A DNA stretch of 40,129 nt from a virus. Position numbers and translations under genes: made by a program. The notes under the pieces are model-generated. The model worked only from the letters and a program-made list of their open reading frames with translations. It was not told where the DNA came from and did no database searches. Every line of letters starts with the position of its first letter. Position 1 is the first letter of the stretch. This document shows positions 28,477 through 39,761 of this stretch, one piece after another. Location: IMG/VR virus record IMGVR_UViG_3300046538_000190, positions 1-40,129 of that record; one strand, given 5' to 3'.

Positions 28477-28500
28477 GGTATCTCCTTGGTATCAGTTAGG

Positions 28501-28700
28501 TATCCGTTTGGTGTGGAGTTATCGGATATCTACAAGATACCAAAAAGAATCCCGCGAGATATCCGATATCCAAATAGTACCATAGAATATCCAAAAGATA
28601 TCCACGGGATATCCGATATCTTATGGATATTCATAAGATATCCATAGTTCAGAGAATAGCCGTGGGATATCCGATATCCAAGGGATATCCGAAAGATATC
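28501..28700. repeat. GATATC-rich repeat cluster, probable centromere (parS) and parA operator
   Basis: GATATCCGATATC occurs three times, at 28558-28570, 28608-28620 and 28666-28678 (50- and 58-bp steps). Further GGATATC/AGATATCC units occur at 28524, 28595, 28625, 28634, 28682 and 28693. The stretch is AT-rich against a GC-rich genome and lies immediately upstream of parA. A related stretch is at 36114-36146. Such arrays are bound by the small partition protein, both to segregate the plasmid and to repress the operon. Confidence 0.8.
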
Positions 28701-31191: not shown

Positions 31192-31233
31192 ATTATGAGT
31201 TAAATCTATTGGACGTTCAATAGATATCTAGTT
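31192..31233 (-). promoter_or_regulatory. Leftward promoter (PL-like) with overlapping operators
   Basis: Read leftward, -35 TTGAAC (31220-31215), 17-bp spacer, -10 CATAAT (31197-31192). A perfect dyad ATCTATTG-GACGTT-CAATAGAT covers 31204-31225. A 7-2-7 operator CAATAGA-TA-TCTAGTT lies at 31218-31233 over the -35 and matches the operators at 38684/38704 and 33102. It drives the replication/recombination operon 31160-27443 and is probably repressed by the CI-like protein. Confidence 0.75.
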
Positions 31234-31262: not shown

Positions 31263-31994
31263 TTACTCGTGGGATAGCAGGCCGAGCTGGTGGGCGAGGA
31301 ACGCCGTGGGGAATATCTGATCGCGGCCGAACATTTCGGGCAATTTCCGGTAGAGGTAAGCCACCTTGTTCTGGCTGATGCCGAGCAGGTCGGCGATGTC
31401 GGCCGCCGTATGGCCATCCAGAACCAGGCGCAGCACTTTGCGCGCGGTCGGTGTGAGCGCGATGTCCAGGTCCAGGTTGGGCAATGCCTTGCTCAGGATG
31501 ATGGATTCCATGGCGGCGATGGCGAGCCTGGCCAGGTCCAGGCAATCGGGGCCTGGGCTGGGGAGCGCAATGCGGGGAGTGGACAGGGCGACAAAGCCCA
31601 CGGCGCCCAGCTTGCAAGGGATCGCGGCGGACCAGGTGAGAGCTATCCCGTGGGCTTGTGCTTCGCGCTTGAAGTCGGCACGGGACCAGTACATCGGGTC
31701 CTGGTACTCGCTCGGTATGGCGGTGCGCTTGCCTGCAGCGACGTGCGAGCCGTGCCGCTGGCCGGGCGAGATAAAGCGCTCCAGCCAGTCGGGGGTGTAG
31801 TTGTTGAAATAGGAATAGCGTGGCTGTGCGGCCGAGTTCGGGACTTCAAAGCCGATGGCGGCGTGCTCATAACCTAGGTGGCCTTGAGCCAGCAGCGCGA
31901 ATTTGAGGAAAACCTCGGTTTCGTGGCTGACGTTTAGCTCGTTCCGACAGTCCGCCAACCAGCTCGGCGAATAAGTCATGCGAAATTGTCGCAT
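31263..31994 (-). CDS. LuxR-type transcription regulator with N-terminal autoinducer-binding-like domain
   Basis: A 243-aa protein. Residues about 10-170 match the autoinducer-binding domain in outline: NYTPDWLERFI with the conserved Trp, then an IALTWSAAIP and GAVGFVALS region. Residues about 175-235 are a LuxR HTH (LTPTARKVLRLVLDGHTAADIADLLGISQNKVAYLYRKL), ending in FLAHQLGLL. The Tyr of WxxxY is Phe, and the usual Asp-Pro and second Trp of the ligand pocket are not obvious, so the ligand may not be a standard acyl-homoserine lactone. There is no luxI in the window. The gene faces the small ORF at 32422 across a structured region. A second start at 31979 is possible; neither has a good ribosome site. 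Confidence 0.9.
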   Translation of the reverse strand: MRQFRMTYSPSWLADCRNELNVSHETEVFLKFALLAQGHLGYEHAAIGFEVPNSAAQPRYSYFNNYTPDWLERFISPGQRHGSHVAAGKRTAIPSEYQDPMYWSRADFKREAQAHGIALTWSAAIPCKLGAVGFVALSTPRIALPSPGPDCLDLARLAIAAMESIILSKALPNLDLDIALTPTARKVLRLVLDGHTAADIADLLGISQNKVAYLYRKLPEMFGRDQIFPTAFLAHQLGLLSHE

Positions 31995-32421
31995 AAAAAT
32001 CTAGTGGCCGCCTACCACAAGATAGTGAAGCCCGCAACGCGGTTGGCCGTGTTGTTACCAACCCGTAACATAGGCTACATTGGCGGGCTAAATAGTTTGC
32101 CACACTGACAATGATGTTTCTTGTTGTCACTGCTATGGGCTTGCCCATTGCGGACTTCCTTTGACACCCTAAGCGTTGCCATTATTGGCGCTTGCGCTCC
32201 CCTGGGCGGCAGATGTTGGATTGCATCGGGCTAACGACGAAACTTAAAAAATTGCCAACCACGGCAACTGGTTTCGTCGCCCGTGAGGTCGCCGTTGAGG
32301 TGTGAGAATTGGTGAGAATCTAGTTTTTTTCTAAAAAACGATTAGAAAAATCACGTCTTCTTCACGGCCAGCAACTAGATTTGCGGTATATTGAAGGTTA
32401 AAGACACTACGCGGGGGCAGG
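31995..32421. promoter_or_regulatory. Structured control region between luxR-like gene and the small ORF
   Basis: 427 bp without a gene. It contains an operator half-site TCTAGTG (32000-32006) and an 18-bp dyad TGTTAC-CAACCC-GTAACA (32053-32070), a candidate LuxR box. TGACAA (32106-32111) faces TTGTCA (32124-32129). A perfect TTGACA is at 32161. A nested RNA-type hairpin CGACGAAAC/GTTTCGTCG (32235-32243 with 32271-32279) encloses TTGCC/GGCAA. GTGAGAAT is repeated 10 bp apart (32302, 32312). Operator-like half-sites are TCTAGTT (32319), GATTAGA (32340) and AACTAGA (32373). A candidate -10 TATATT (32387-32392) precedes the small ORF. The dyads point to several regulators acting here. Confidence 0.65.
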
Positions 32422-32646
32422 GTGAAGCTGAGGGACGAGTTGGTGAAAATGTTTGATGACATGGACGCGCGCCACCAGGGCGAATTGATTGATATTGCGC
32501 GTATGTACCGGGCTAAGGGGGCGAAGGCGCGGGCCGAAAGTGGCCCGCTCGCTTCATCTATGGCTGTGCCGCGCTTGCGGCTGGTGCGGGGCGGCGGGGC
32601 TACTTCTCAGCCTGTCCGGGAGCCTGTTCACTGCGCAGCCTCTTAG
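32422..32646 (+). CDS. Small protein resembling the C-terminal helices of the adjacent repressor (candidate antirepressor)
   Basis: A 74-aa ORF from GTG 32422 (an internal ATG is at 32449). Residues 10-28 (MFDDMDARHQGELIDIARM) align with residues 103-121 of the CI-like repressor (LFRDTDDDGRDSLLSIAKR): six identities plus several conservative changes without gaps. There is no HTH, and the rest is basic and low-complexity. It is divergent from the LuxR gene, convergent with the repressor gene, and overlaps the repressor 3' end by 47 nt. Operator half-sites and a candidate promoter lie upstream. It may block CI by forming mixed oligomers. Coding status is likely, function is inference. Confidence 0.65.
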   Translation: MKLRDELVKMFDDMDARHQGELIDIARMYRAKGAKARAESGPLASSMAVPRLRLVRGGGATSQPVREPVHCAAS

Positions 32647-33001
32647 CAATGGAGAGCAGCGAGTCGCGGCCGTCGTCGTCGGTGTCGCGGAACAGGGACA
32701 GCATGAGGCTTTCCTCTGCCGTGCAGCGGTGCAGCGTCGTGGCGGCGTGCGTATCCTTTGCGGCGCCACGCTTCGCTGGTTTCTCGTCCGCCATGGGCGA
32801 GCCGTCACCGTTTTCCAGCCAAATCGCGTTGACCTCCAGGGCGGCGGCGATTGAGGCGAGCTTGCGCGCGGTCTTGCTGCGACCTACTTCCAGATTATTA
32901 ATGGTGCCCTGAGAAACGCCGGATTCCTCGGCCAGCTTTTCTTGCGACCATTTTTTTATATGGGTCCGTGCCCATAACAGGCGGTCTTTGAGTTCTTTCA
33001 T
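32600..33001 (-). CDS. XRE-family phage repressor (CI-like)
   Basis: A 133-aa repressor. The HTH occupies about residues 17-60 (WSQEKLAEESGVSQGTINNLEVGRSKTARKLASIAAAL), followed by the WLENGDG element common to Cro/CI-type repressors. The C-terminal 40 residues (TAEESLMLSLFRDTDDDGRDSLLSIAKRLR) are the helical oligomerisation tail. There is no S24/LexA-type peptidase domain, so RecA-driven self-cleavage is unlikely and induction must work by another route, such as an antirepressor. Start at ATG 33001 is preferred over the 33088 start of the longer frame, because the added 29 residues look unlike a repressor N-terminus. Divergent from the Cro-like gene. Confidence 0.88.
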   Translation of the reverse strand: MKELKDRLLWARTHIKKWSQEKLAEESGVSQGTINNLEVGRSKTARKLASIAAALEVNAIWLENGDGSPMADEKPAKRGAAKDTHAATTLHRCTAEESLMLSLFRDTDDDGRDSLLSIAKRLRSEQAPGQAEK

Positions 33002-33066
33002 GTGCTTTTTGTCGGCTGAAAGTCTTAATTGGGTAACCACAACTGTAATACAAAAACTGATGGAAG

Positions 33067-33143
33067 TGGTGCTATTCCGTAGCACCAACTACGGCATAAA
33101 ATATTAGAAACCTATTGACGACGATAACCACAAATCTGATAAT
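33067..33143 (+). promoter_or_regulatory. cI-cro intergenic operators and rightward promoter of the Cro-like gene
   Basis: The promoter has -35 TTGACG (33115-33120), 17-bp spacer and -10 GATAAT (33138-33143). A 7-2-7 operator TATTAGA-AA-CCTATTG (33102-33117) overlaps the -35. A different dyad TGGTGCTA-TTCCG-TAGCACCA lies at 33067-33087. Only six bases separate the -10 from ATG 33150, so the transcript should be leaderless. Confidence 0.75.
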
Positions 33144-33149
33144 TAACGA

Positions 33150-33383
33150 ATGGACACACAGAAAATCGTCGCGGAACTGCTGGAATCGGGCCTTTCTCAG
33201 CAGGCGTTAGGGAAGGCGGCCGGGTGCTCGCAATCGACCATTTCGGCCTTGAAAAGTGGTGAGCGTGGCAAACGCATTTCCAAGGCGCTGGGGGACCGGC
33301 TGCAGGCGATGCACAAGGGGATGACGCGGAAGGCGGGAAGCAAAAAGGCCCGGAATCCGCTGACACAGACCCCGGGCCTCTAG
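33150..33383 (+). CDS. Cro-like HTH protein
   Basis: A 77-aa protein. The HTH is at about residues 12-40 (ESGLSQQALGKAAGCSQSTISALKSGERGKRISKALGDRL). The C-terminus is Lys/Arg/Asn-rich. It is transcribed away from the CI-like gene from a strong promoter with an operator. There is no Shine-Dalgarno in front of ATG 33150 and the predicted transcript start falls on the ATG. A hairpin AGGCCCGG/CCGGGCCT lies across its 3' end (33345-33379), which could attenuate. It is expected to repress cI transcription and switch to lytic growth. Confidence 0.82.
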   Translation: MDTQKIVAELLESGLSQQALGKAAGCSQSTISALKSGERGKRISKALGDRLQAMHKGMTRKAGSKKARNPLTQTPGL

Positions 33384-36163: not shown

Positions 36164-36463
36164 TCAGTGCTTGATGAGGCCGTGCGCCTCGGCGTACTCG
36201 GCCAGCGCGCGCCCCATGAGAGTCTGGTAGCCCTTGCCGGTGCTGCGGTATGCCTTGAGCACAGTCGTGTCCACGCGCAGGGCGGTGCGGGTCTTGCGCT
36301 CGTCCTCGGCCAGGGCTGGGCGACCGCGCGGCCGGGCTGGTTTCATCTTGGCCAGCATCGCGTCGGTGGCGGGCGGGTTGTCCGGGTCGGTCATGGCGGC
36401 CGCCGTGATGGCCGCGTCTTCCTCGTCGGTCGGCATGTAGATTTCAAGTTTTCGCTTTGACAT
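36164..36463 (-). CDS. brnA: BrnA antitoxin
   Basis: A 99-aa protein of the BrnA family. It starts with a polar segment (MSKRKLEIYMPTDEEDAAITAAAMTDPDNPP). The C-terminal part KTRTALRVDTTVLKAYRSTGKGYQTLMGRALAEYAEAH is the ribbon-helix-helix with the K-GYQT-NALR-like motif typical of BrnA. It neutralises BrnT and represses the operon. A GAGGTG site precedes the start, and the gene overlaps brnT by 20 nt. Confidence 0.9.
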   Translation of the reverse strand: MSKRKLEIYMPTDEEDAAITAAAMTDPDNPPATDAMLAKMKPARPRGRPALAEDERKTRTALRVDTTVLKAYRSTGKGYQTLMGRALAEYAEAHGLIKH

Positions 36464-36716
36464 ATTCGGTCACCTCTCGTTTGTTGGCTTTGCGCAGGCT
36501 GATGATGCGGCGCACGTCGCCACGGTCCGTGTAGATGACCGCGTGCAGGCGGTTGCCCAGTGGGGCTAGCACGTACATGCGGACCTCGTTGTAATCCTCG
36601 CGGTCATCTTCCGTTTCCATCGCATTGCCCCAATCCAGATTGGCCGCCTCGGCCAGCGATACGCCGTGCTTGTTGAGGTTGGCTTTGTCTTTGTTGGGGT
36701 CGAATTCGATTTCCAT
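36444..36716 (-). CDS. brnT: BrnT toxin (ribonuclease)
   Basis: A 90-aa protein with the BrnT start MEIEFDPNKDKANLNKHGVSLAEAANL and the catalytic-like region with RMYVLAPLGNRLHAVIYTDRGDVRRIISLRKANKREVTEYVK. BrnT is a RelE-like ribosome-independent RNase. The toxin-antitoxin pair kills or stalls cells that lose the element, so it supports stable plasmid-like maintenance. The start at 36716 lies about six bases from the -10, which implies a leaderless transcript. Confidence 0.9.
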   Translation of the reverse strand: MEIEFDPNKDKANLNKHGVSLAEAANLDWGNAMETEDDREDYNEVRMYVLAPLGNRLHAVIYTDRGDVRRIISLRKANKREVTEYVKAKT

Positions 36717-36722
36717 GTGATT

Positions 36723-36770
36723 ATTGTGCCCACAAATAATATGCGCGTCAAGTATATTTTGTGACCACAA
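36723..36770 (-). promoter_or_regulatory. brnTA promoter with two BrnA-type operators
   Basis: Read leftward, -35 TTGACG (36751-36746), 17-bp spacer, -10 CACAAT (36728-36723). Two dyads TTGTG-CC-CACAA (36724-36735) and TTGTG-AC-CACAA (36759-36770) flank it and are likely bound by BrnA to repress the operon. Confidence 0.75.
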
Positions 36771-36823
36771 TAAAGCGGTGGGAAAACCCACCACAAGACC
36801 GGCGCGGCGGCGGGCGCCATGAT

Positions 36824-36906
36824 TCCCTTGCGCGCTGGCGTGGTCGTGACGCGAGCATGACGGATAGGCCGCGTGGCGGCCCATCACGACACACAAGGGA
36901 GTCTCT
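36824..36906 (+). promoter_or_regulatory. Leader that can fold to hide the ribosome site of the 36907 ORF
   Basis: TCCCTTG (36824-36830) is complementary to CAAGGGA (36894-36900), the Shine-Dalgarno of ATG 36907. Inside, GTCGTGA (36843-36849) pairs with TCACGAC (36884-36890), and GGCCGC (36867-36872) with GCGGCC (36876-36881). A three-part nested structure would make translation conditional, as in type I toxin mRNAs. Confidence 0.6.
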
Positions 36907-37047
36907 ATGCTGGAAAAATTCTGCCGCTTCACCCTGGACGGCCTGGCCAGGCTGGCCGAGCTGGTCAACGCCTTGTCGCGCTGCCTGGGCCGCCTGGCCG
37001 ACGTGCTGGCCTTGCTGGTCCTGCTGCGTGCGGCCGGGCTGTTCTGA
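36907..37047 (+). CDS. Leu-rich small protein, possible membrane-active peptide
   Basis: A 46-aa protein with a strong ribosome site (AAGGGAG) five nt before ATG 36907. It is Leu/Ala-rich with amphipathic repeats (FTLDGLARLAELVNALSRCLGRLADVLALLVLLRAAGLF), and the last 20 residues could insert in a membrane. Divergent from brnTA, convergent with an HTH gene whose end is 3 nt away. The hidden ribosome site makes a type I toxin-like peptide possible. No antisense RNA has been identified. Confidence 0.5.
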   Translation: MLEKFCRFTLDGLARLAELVNALSRCLGRLADVLALLVLLRAAGLF

Positions 37048-38683: not shown

Positions 38684-38724
38684 AACTAGAAACCTATTTA
38701 CACAACTAGAAATCTAGTTATAAA
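38684..38724 (+). promoter_or_regulatory. Rightward late promoter with two tandem CI-type operators
   Basis: -35 TTTACA (38697-38702), 16-bp spacer, -10 TATAAA (38719-38724). Operators AACTAGA-AA-CCTATTT (38684-38699) and the perfect palindrome AACTAGA-AA-TCTAGTT (38704-38719) are 20 bp apart; the second fills the spacer and the first overlaps the -35. It drives 38876 onward through the junction into the structural genes. Confidence 0.8.
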
Positions 38725-38730
38725 ATCCGC

Positions 38731-38863
38731 GCCACATGCTCATGCACTCGTAATGCGGCCGCAAGGTCCACCGATAGCATGATCCGCGCAGCAGATCACC
38801 ACGGTAAGGGGAGCCGCTGCGCGTTTAGAAAACACGGCCCGCCAGAGATGGCGGGCTTTTTTA
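38731..38863 (+). ncRNA. Short structured leader/small RNA ending in an intrinsic terminator
   Basis: The predicted transcript starts about 38731. Stem CGCGCAGC (38785-38792) pairs perfectly with GCTGCGCG (38816-38823). A terminator GCCCGCCA (38837-38844), GAGA, TGGCGGGC (38849-38856) and TTTTTT follows. No ORF lies within it. A promoter, structured RNA and terminator just before the late genes match the PR'/tR' layout of Q-regulated phages; the short RNA may also act on its own. Confidence 0.6.
38837..38863 (+). terminator. Intrinsic terminator in front of the late operon
   Basis: GCCCGCCA (38837-38844) and TGGCGGGC (38849-38856) form an 8-bp hairpin with GAGA loop, followed by a T tract ending TTATT. 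Transcription must pass it to reach the late genes. Confidence 0.88.
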
Positions 38864-38875
38864 TTGGCGCCTCAC

Positions 38876-39120: not shown

Positions 39121-39345
39121 ATGGACATCAAGAGCCTGCGATTTGCGGCAAAGGCGACCAGAAAGGAGTGCAGTGGCTGCCTGTTTGAAAACGAGCGGTC
39201 CAGCGTCTGCAAGGATGCGGCCGGCGAGGCGAAAGCGCGCGGCCTGCCTGATTGCGACGACGCCGACCCGGACGGCCGCAGCTACATCTACGTGGAAGAC
39301 CCGACCGACCCGCGCCAGATTCCCCTGCTGGAGCCGCCGACATGA
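39121..39345 (+). CDS. Small Cys-containing protein (zinc-binding candidate)
   Basis: A 74-aa protein. MDIKSLRFAAKATRKECSGCLFENERSSVCKDAAGEAKARGLPDCDDADPDGRSYIYVEDP contains four cysteines (CxxC, then two single Cys) that could bind zinc. The stop overlaps the next start (ATGA). It lies in the nuclease/methyltransferase gene set. Family not recognised. Confidence 0.65.
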   Translation: MDIKSLRFAAKATRKECSGCLFENERSSVCKDAAGEAKARGLPDCDDADPDGRSYIYVEDPTDPRQIPLLEPPT

Positions 39346-39761
39346 TGCGCCGCACGCCGATGCGCCGGTCCGGCTTCAAGCAGCGCGCCGGGCCGTCGCC
39401 GTGTAAGCCGGCCAGTCCAAAGGCGATTGTGAAGAAGTCGCCCGGCATGAGGACCCGCCAGCGCACGGTGGCGGCCGAGGAAAAGGCGTTGTGGGACCGG
39501 CTGGCGCGCGAAGTTGGCTGTATCGCCTGCCGCCAGGATGGAATTTTTAATGACCATGTGAGCATCCACCACGTTGACGGCCGCACCAAGCCTGGCTGTC
39601 ATCGCAAGGTGCTGCCGCTGTGTGGTCCGCATCACCAGGACGACGGAAGCGGCGCCATTGCCGTGCATCCCTGGAAGGCGCGCTTTGAGGCGCGTTACGG
39701 CACGCAGGACGAATTGATGCTGATGTGTGCTGCCTTGCTTGGATTGGAGTCTTTGGGTTGA
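39342..39761 (+). CDS. Ref-like RecA-dependent nuclease
   Basis: A 139-aa protein. Residues about 55-120 (REVGCIACRQDG, then SIHHVDGRTKPGCHRKVLPLCGPHHQDDG, then AVHPWKARFEARYGTQDELM) match the P1 Ref (recombination enhancement) HNH-type nuclease family, which cuts DNA in RecA-bound displacement loops. The N-terminal 45 residues are Arg/Lys-rich. Overlaps the MTase start by one base (TGATG). It probably acts with the SSB/PD-(D/E)XK module in recombination; the link is inferred. Confidence 0.8.
   Translation: MMRRTPMRRSGFKQRAGPSPCKPASPKAIVKKSPGMRTRQRTVAAEEKALWDRLAREVGCIACRQDGIFNDHVSIHHVDGRTKPGCHRKVLPLCGPHHQDDGSGAIAVHPWKARFEARYGTQDELMLMCAALLGLESLG

Follow-up and report, generated by a model that had tools for sequence, protein, structure and literature searches.

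Phage transcription factors (TFs) are known to activate divergent small ORFs (smORFs) whose products inactivate cI, and among these modules are LuxR-XRE pairs of Aeromonas phages for which C4-HSL is the signal (Silpe et al. 2023, PMC10432266). Precedents for a phage LuxR responding to an acyl-homoserine lactone (AHL) come from ARM81ld and Apop (PMC6456758, PMC10432266). The LuxR of ARM81ld is one of two phage LuxRs shown to bind AHLs. The VqmA-Qtip pair of vibriophage VP882, whose receptor VqmA is unlike LuxR in kind, resembles our locus in its logic of a divergent receptor/TF and a small antirepressor. There Qtip sequesters cI, with no mention of a likeness between the two (PMC11323111). The cI of VP882 also differs in being self-cleaving. 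Small antirepressors of the Gifsy/Fels type disable non-cleavable phage repressors, as the candidate described here would, but they are under LexA (PMC3121763; described in PMC10448788), whereas our candidate lies beside a neighbouring TF. LuxR solos with altered invariant residues, such as AvhR (W57F, D70S, W85R), belong to the LuxR family and have D70 and W85 replaced, as here (PMC4338825, PMC8546723), but they are bacterial and stand outside a phage switch. Finally, the LuxR circuits of Phaeobacter prophages favour lysogeny over lysis (PMC13345283).

The locus that we analyzed is closest to those of ARM81ld and Apop, with which it shares a phage LuxR-family gene, an opposite-strand smORF without homologues, a CI-like repressor, and a plasmid-like temperate phage as carrier. 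In those phages luxR lies behind an xre gene, which is needed for the module to work, near par genes and about 10 kb from cI; the LuxR protein retains D70-P71, and the cI repressors selected for study are self-cleaving. In contrast, we found luxR without an XRE gene in its operon (CI and Cro are the block's sole XRE genes), the module abuts cI, the AHL pocket is degenerate, and CI has no peptidase. The initial annotation of this DNA knew of no description of such a combination, but LuxR, XRE, and a divergent smORF that inactivates cI have already been published together for ARM81ld and Apop (PMC10432266). The logic of the block is thus already known, since its layout is that of the published TF-smORF antirepressor modules: a TF divergent from a smORF in a temperate phage, the smORF having neither homologues nor known domains (Silpe 2023). 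We did not file the locus as an AHL receptor module because most of the invariant residues are lost and the XRE partner is missing. What is new here is the degenerate LuxR, the immediate proximity of a non-cleavable CI to the small ORF, and the likeness between the small protein and the tail of CI.

The phage genome

The window, i.e., the whole stretch analyzed, is a virus contig of 40,129 bases with a 127-base direct repeat at both ends. This repeat indicates a complete phage genome and points to a circular or terminally redundant one, rather than to the linear plasmid-like form with telN/repA that goes with the published TF-smORF modules. The head module is full (terminase, portal, protease, and major head protein), and the large terminase shares 75% identity with its counterpart in Pseudomonas phage PAJU2. 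Family and profile matches revealed ParA, a replication protein, SSB, and an exonuclease, and searches of the genome with PF00589 and PF00239 gave no match to a tyrosine or serine recombinase. With partition and replication genes present and an integrase not found, a phage-plasmid is the natural reading of the gene content. Directly upstream of ParA we found a repeat array that is likely to be a centromere or a replication iteron array:

28494-28700: about a dozen palindromic repeats of the GATATCC type

The genome has other features of note. There is a tRNA-Pro (CGG) gene at 815-911, a papain-family cysteine protease at 1123-1863 (Peptidase_C1, 66 bits), and a Ref-like RecA-dependent nuclease at 39252-39761 (Pfam RecA_dep_nuc, PHROG 2321). 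The region 36164-36968 has a match to the BrnA antitoxin (60 bits), with a BrnT-like frame seen by eye upstream, within 36444-36968 on the minus strand; the two probably form a BrnTA toxin-antitoxin pair. The tetranucleotide CTAG is underrepresented across the window (21 occurrences against 61 expected).

The gene block and its CI/Cro switch

The four ORFs named in the initial annotation are all present, and their family assignments hold:

31263-31994, minus strand: LuxR-family regulator (autoinducer-binding fold plus HTH), 243 aa, with a degenerate AHL pocket, from Pfam, structure matches, and alignment
31995-32421: divergent control region between LuxR and the small ORF, 427 bp, 49% G+C against 63% in the genome
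32422-32646, plus strand: small ORF, 74 aa, candidate antirepressor, with an alternative start at 32440/32443 behind AGGGA
32600-33001, minus strand: CI-like repressor, 133 aa, HTH plus a short helical tail, no peptidase (HTH_3, 41.6 bits)
33150-33383, plus strand: Cro-like regulator, 77 aa (HTH_3, 27.9 bits; PHROG 6831)

LuxR had been described as facing the small ORF, but the two genes are divergent, back to back and 427 bp apart, and this true layout is nearer to the published modules than the one first described. As proposed, the small ORF runs into the repressor gene, overlapping the 3' end of CI by 47 nt, and the Cro-like gene (plus strand) is divergent from CI (minus strand). The N-terminus of the CI-like protein is 434 Cro/CI-like, with a 434-type HTH. 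Family searches of its 133 residues revealed no self-cleaving S24/LexA C-terminal domain, in line with the earlier remark that a LexA-type peptidase is missing; therefore, some other inducer would be needed. The divergent HTH repressor and Cro, together with operators common to the left and right early promoters (see below), are what a lambda-like CI/Cro switch is expected to show at the sequence level.

A LuxR-family protein with lost AHL residues

The LuxR-family protein matches Pfam Autoind_bind with 27.4 bits (cut-off 23) and has matches among solved structures to RhlR variants, QscR, and SdiA over most of its length. The GerE HTH scores 21.3 bits, just below the cut-off of 23.5, so that the protein can be described as an autoinducer-binding domain followed by a LuxR-type HTH, the latter slightly under threshold. 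Nine residues are invariant in AHL-type LuxRs: in TraR numbering, W57, Y61, D70, P71, W85, and G113 in the ligand domain and E178, L182, and G188 in the HTH (PMC4338825). In an alignment with 17 homologues, onto which the TraR numbers were mapped by motif because TraR itself was absent from it, only W57, L182, and G188 are kept (here W70, L188, and G194). The substitutions are Y61F (F74), W85Y (Y97), G113T (T120), E178A (A184), D70G/S, and P71S/H, the position of D70 being G82 or S83 depending on the gap and that of P71 being S83/H84. All 17 homologues keep D70 and W85, and the LuxR of ARM81ld keeps D70-P71. The single-sequence fold of the protein was unusable (pLDDT 41), and the pocket was thus judged by alignment only. 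The earlier proposal that LuxR senses host density via an AHL is not supported, given the loss of six of the nine diagnostic residues, which makes AHL sensing in the known way unlikely. AHL sensing by this protein is weakly supported, and it may possibly have another ligand or none. By eye, we found no classical 20-bp lux box.

Coding status of the small ORF and likeness to the CI tail

We scored the codons of the small ORF with a model trained on the confident genes of this genome. These genes have a mean of +0.51 bits per codon (5th percentile +0.05), wrong frames -0.58, and LuxR and Cro +0.22 each. The first 38 codons of the small ORF score +0.41, and the 59 codons that do not overlap CI score +0.15, the last ~20 of them scoring like non-coding sequence. 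Since the score of the N-terminal half is near that of real genes, it is plausible that the first ~40 codons are coding. The small protein had no family match in Pfam or PHROG and no homologue in phage records.

The initial annotation called the small protein repressor-mimicking. Without gaps, its residues 7-39 (LVKMFDDMDARHQGELIDIARMYRAKGAKARAE) can be aligned to residues 100-132 of CI (MLSLFRDTDDDGRDSLLSIAKRLRSEQAPGQAE), with 10/33 identities and a raw BLOSUM62 score of 46. This score was reached by 16 of 5000 shuffles against the whole CI; against the CI tail it was reached by 0.06% of the shuffles and by 0.09% of 1131 unrelated ORFs, and 0/5000 class-preserving shuffles reached it. The likeness thus goes beyond the shuffled controls, but BLASTP with composition adjustment does not report it, and in an unguided scan of all 552 ORFs of the window CI came about second, with an unrelated frame higher (49) and several near (43-45). 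A low-confidence model of CI places two helices in the tail, at 95-103 and 109-126. We regard the likeness as suggestive, and the case for it, as that for the coding status of the small ORF, is a statistical one.

Operators, promoters, and control regions

Two early promoters and a third one at 38.7 kb share an operator, newly found here, that overlaps the -35 element:

33105-33143, plus strand: Cro promoter (PR-like), operator TAGAAACCTATTGA overlapping -35 TTGACG, -10 GATAAT
31192-31230, minus strand: left-operon promoter (PL-like), operator TAGATATCTATTGA (31217-31230) overlapping -35 TTGAAC, -10 CATAAT
38684-38726, plus strand: third operator-promoter, a strong one, AACTAGAAACCTATTT (38687, on the -35) plus, as second operator, the perfect palindrome AACTAGAAATCTAGTT between -35 TTTACA and -10 TAAAAT
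33067-33087: dyad TGGTGCTA-N5-TAGCACCA between CI and Cro

The left operon consists of exonuclease, SSB, and ParA. For the operator pattern TAGAWAYCTATTKA we counted exactly three copies in the genome and 0 in 100 shuffles, a count that overstates its significance because the pattern was chosen after the sites had been seen; this choice has no bearing on the fact that the sites lie on the -35 of three promoters. The simplest reading would be that one repressor, CI and/or Cro, acts on the PR-like, the PL-like, and the third promoter, and the motif may instead be bound by LuxR. Motif discovery by EM, run over the non-coding regions, locked onto the GATATCC repeats near ParA, and the operator therefore rests on the direct pattern count. 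Seven of the 21 CTAG occurrences lie within the control regions at 31.2-32.4 and 38.7 kb, and it was this clustering that led to the operator.

The third promoter precedes a probable small RNA or terminated leader:

38728-38864, plus strand: small RNA or terminated leader (probable), with an intrinsic terminator at 38836-38857

This 137-nt RNA has strong folding (z = -3.25) and no Rfam match. Downstream of it come the Ref-like nuclease and, with the genome closed into a circle, the late region.

The control region between LuxR and the small ORF, together with the start of the LuxR gene, has the following elements:

32326-32350: perfect dyad TTTTTCTAA-N7-TTAGAAAAA, a candidate site for an activator, ~61 bp upstream of where transcription of the small ORF presumably starts
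32387-32392, plus strand: TATATT, candidate -10 of the small-ORF promoter, read from the sequence
32373-32388, plus strand: half-operator AACTAGATTTGCGGTA at the small-ORF promoter, 10/14 to the dyad consensus (P = 0.09 within its own region)
31998-32006, minus strand: half-operator CACTAGATT at the LuxR start
32250-32269, minus strand: terminator-like hairpin on the CI strand, weak (the scan gave 4 sites against 2.7 expected)

The dyad scores 9, which is also the 99th percentile of shuffles of the region. The small-ORF promoter has no recognisable -35 at 16-18 bp and was missed by the two-hexamer scan; we infer that a -10 without -35, preceded by a dyad, is what would be expected of an activated promoter. 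Upstream of the small ORF, half-sites AACTAGATT with at most one mismatch are found at 32317 and 32373, and a further one, at 31998, lies at the LuxR start. There are 5 such matches in the genome against 1.65 expected, and 4 of them are within 1.2 kb here. LuxR and the small ORF may possibly belong to the immunity regulon as well, a weaker suggestion given the P of 0.09 for that region alone. The minus-strand hairpin at 32269-32250 lies about 330 nt beyond the CI stop, which suggests that a CI mRNA ending there would be antisense to the whole small ORF. The stem TTGCCAACCACGGCAA was read at first as an operator and then as a minus-strand terminator. Rfam gave no RNA match in the gene block.

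Relatives in the databases

We searched IMG/VR with LuxR, CI, p30361, the exonuclease, the replication protein, ParA, p34034, and capsid proteins, GTDB contigs with LuxR and the exonuclease, and phage and plasmid records by protein and by DNA. None of these collections gave a second copy of the LuxR, small ORF, and CI arrangement. This LuxR was not found in 25 phages with related capsid genes, an empty answer obtained there without a positive control. In 399 genomes of the order of a Janthinobacterium genome, all LuxR matches were 24-30% identical, i.e., the general family. One of the 25 phages, G416, has divergent CI/Cro homologues (CI 53% identical over 72 residues, Cro 49% over 55), with neither a LuxR nor a similar small ORF beside them, and its CI tail is similar neither to the small protein nor to the CI tail here. 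Since G416 has CI/Cro without the pair, LuxR and the small ORF look like an accessory, exchangeable pair.

Competing explanations

The gene block is real and coherent and mostly a variant of published logic, its quorum-sensing step being the least supported part. Of the overall reading first given, the lambda-like switch with a peptidase-less repressor, the LuxR-family gene divergent from a small ORF, and the likeness of the small protein to the CI tail have support, whereas AHL-based density sensing has not. Our preferred explanation, held tentatively and at somewhat less than even chances, is an accessory TF-smORF antirepressor module with a non-canonical LuxR in a plasmid-like temperate phage. 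A lambda-like switch would oppose a short, non-cleavable CI to Cro, with the operator also on the left operon and the third promoter, and a two-gene induction module of the TF-smORF type would have been inserted between CI and the left operon. LuxR, acting either on a cue that is not a canonical AHL or without any ligand, would activate the divergent small ORF from a promoter without a good -35; the small protein would pair with the helical C-terminal tail of CI that resembles it and stop CI, and the prophage would be induced without repressor cleavage. We infer the activation by LuxR, the inactivation of CI, and the lytic outcome from the layout, since a divergent TF and small ORF beside a repressor have been shown experimentally to work in this way in other phages (PMC10432266). 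The missing peptidase, the first 38 codons scoring near real genes, the CI-tail likeness and the helices modelled in that tail, the -10 without -35 behind a strong dyad, and the occurrence of CI/Cro without the pair in G416 are all consistent with it. Against it are the fact that the collections searched gave no homologue, either for the small protein or for the module as a whole, the silence of BLASTP and the second rank of CI among 552 ORFs, the absence of a recognised LuxR binding site, and the XRE partner that known LuxR modules need in the luxR operon and that is absent here.

The minus-strand terminator, in suggesting an antisense CI mRNA, would equally fit a locus working as RNA. A rightward transcript from the promoter at 32387, induced by LuxR or released when CI is lost, would enter the 3' end of cI, be complementary to a long 3' portion of the CI mRNA, and lower CI by interference or antisense pairing, the small ORF being a by-product. 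The 47-nt overlap of convergent genes, the hairpin at 32269-32250, and the non-coding score of the last part of the small ORF argue for it, but the first 38 codons score as coding, the CI-tail similarity would be left aside, and the hairpin scan expects 2.7 sites by chance; we find this reading rather improbable. Unlikely too, if less so, is that LuxR is a lysogenic accessory regulator of host or left-operon targets next to an ordinary CI/Cro pair, the small ORF being unrelated or no gene at all. This would be in line with the position of LuxR beside the left operon, both with operator elements, with the small ORF having no homologue, and with the pro-lysogeny circuits of Phaeobacter (PMC13345283). 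On the other side are the 427-bp divergent control region with its strong dyad near the small-ORF promoter, the codon score, and the tail similarity. The full model of the initial annotation, in which LuxR, once bound to a host acyl-homoserine lactone at high density, activates an antirepressor that blocks CI, draws on the Autoind_bind match above the Pfam cut-off, on the conserved W57, and on the precedent of ARM81ld and Apop (PMC6456758, PMC10432266). Considering the six substitutions (Y61F, D70G/S, P71S/H, W85Y, G113T, and E178A), the 17/17 homologues that keep D70 and W85, and the D70-P71 of ARM81ld, it seems to us highly improbable.

Implications

The antirepressor module that we favour has a more specific version, to which we give little credence. 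In it, a phage would have recruited a quorum-sensing receptor to activate, in response to a cue other than AHL or without any ligand, a small protein that either is a copy of the C-terminal tail of the phage's repressor, presumably its dimerisation part, or has come to resemble that tail by convergence. Induction would then occur without DNA damage or AHL, and the whole module and the small RNA would answer to the immunity operator of the phage itself. Few phage LuxR modules are known, and those published bind AHLs. If this LuxR controls an antirepressor in the absence of an AHL pocket, the same fold would let phages listen to other cues. If the small protein resembles the tail of the CI that it targets, this would give a concrete mechanism for antirepressors that otherwise have no recognisable domains.
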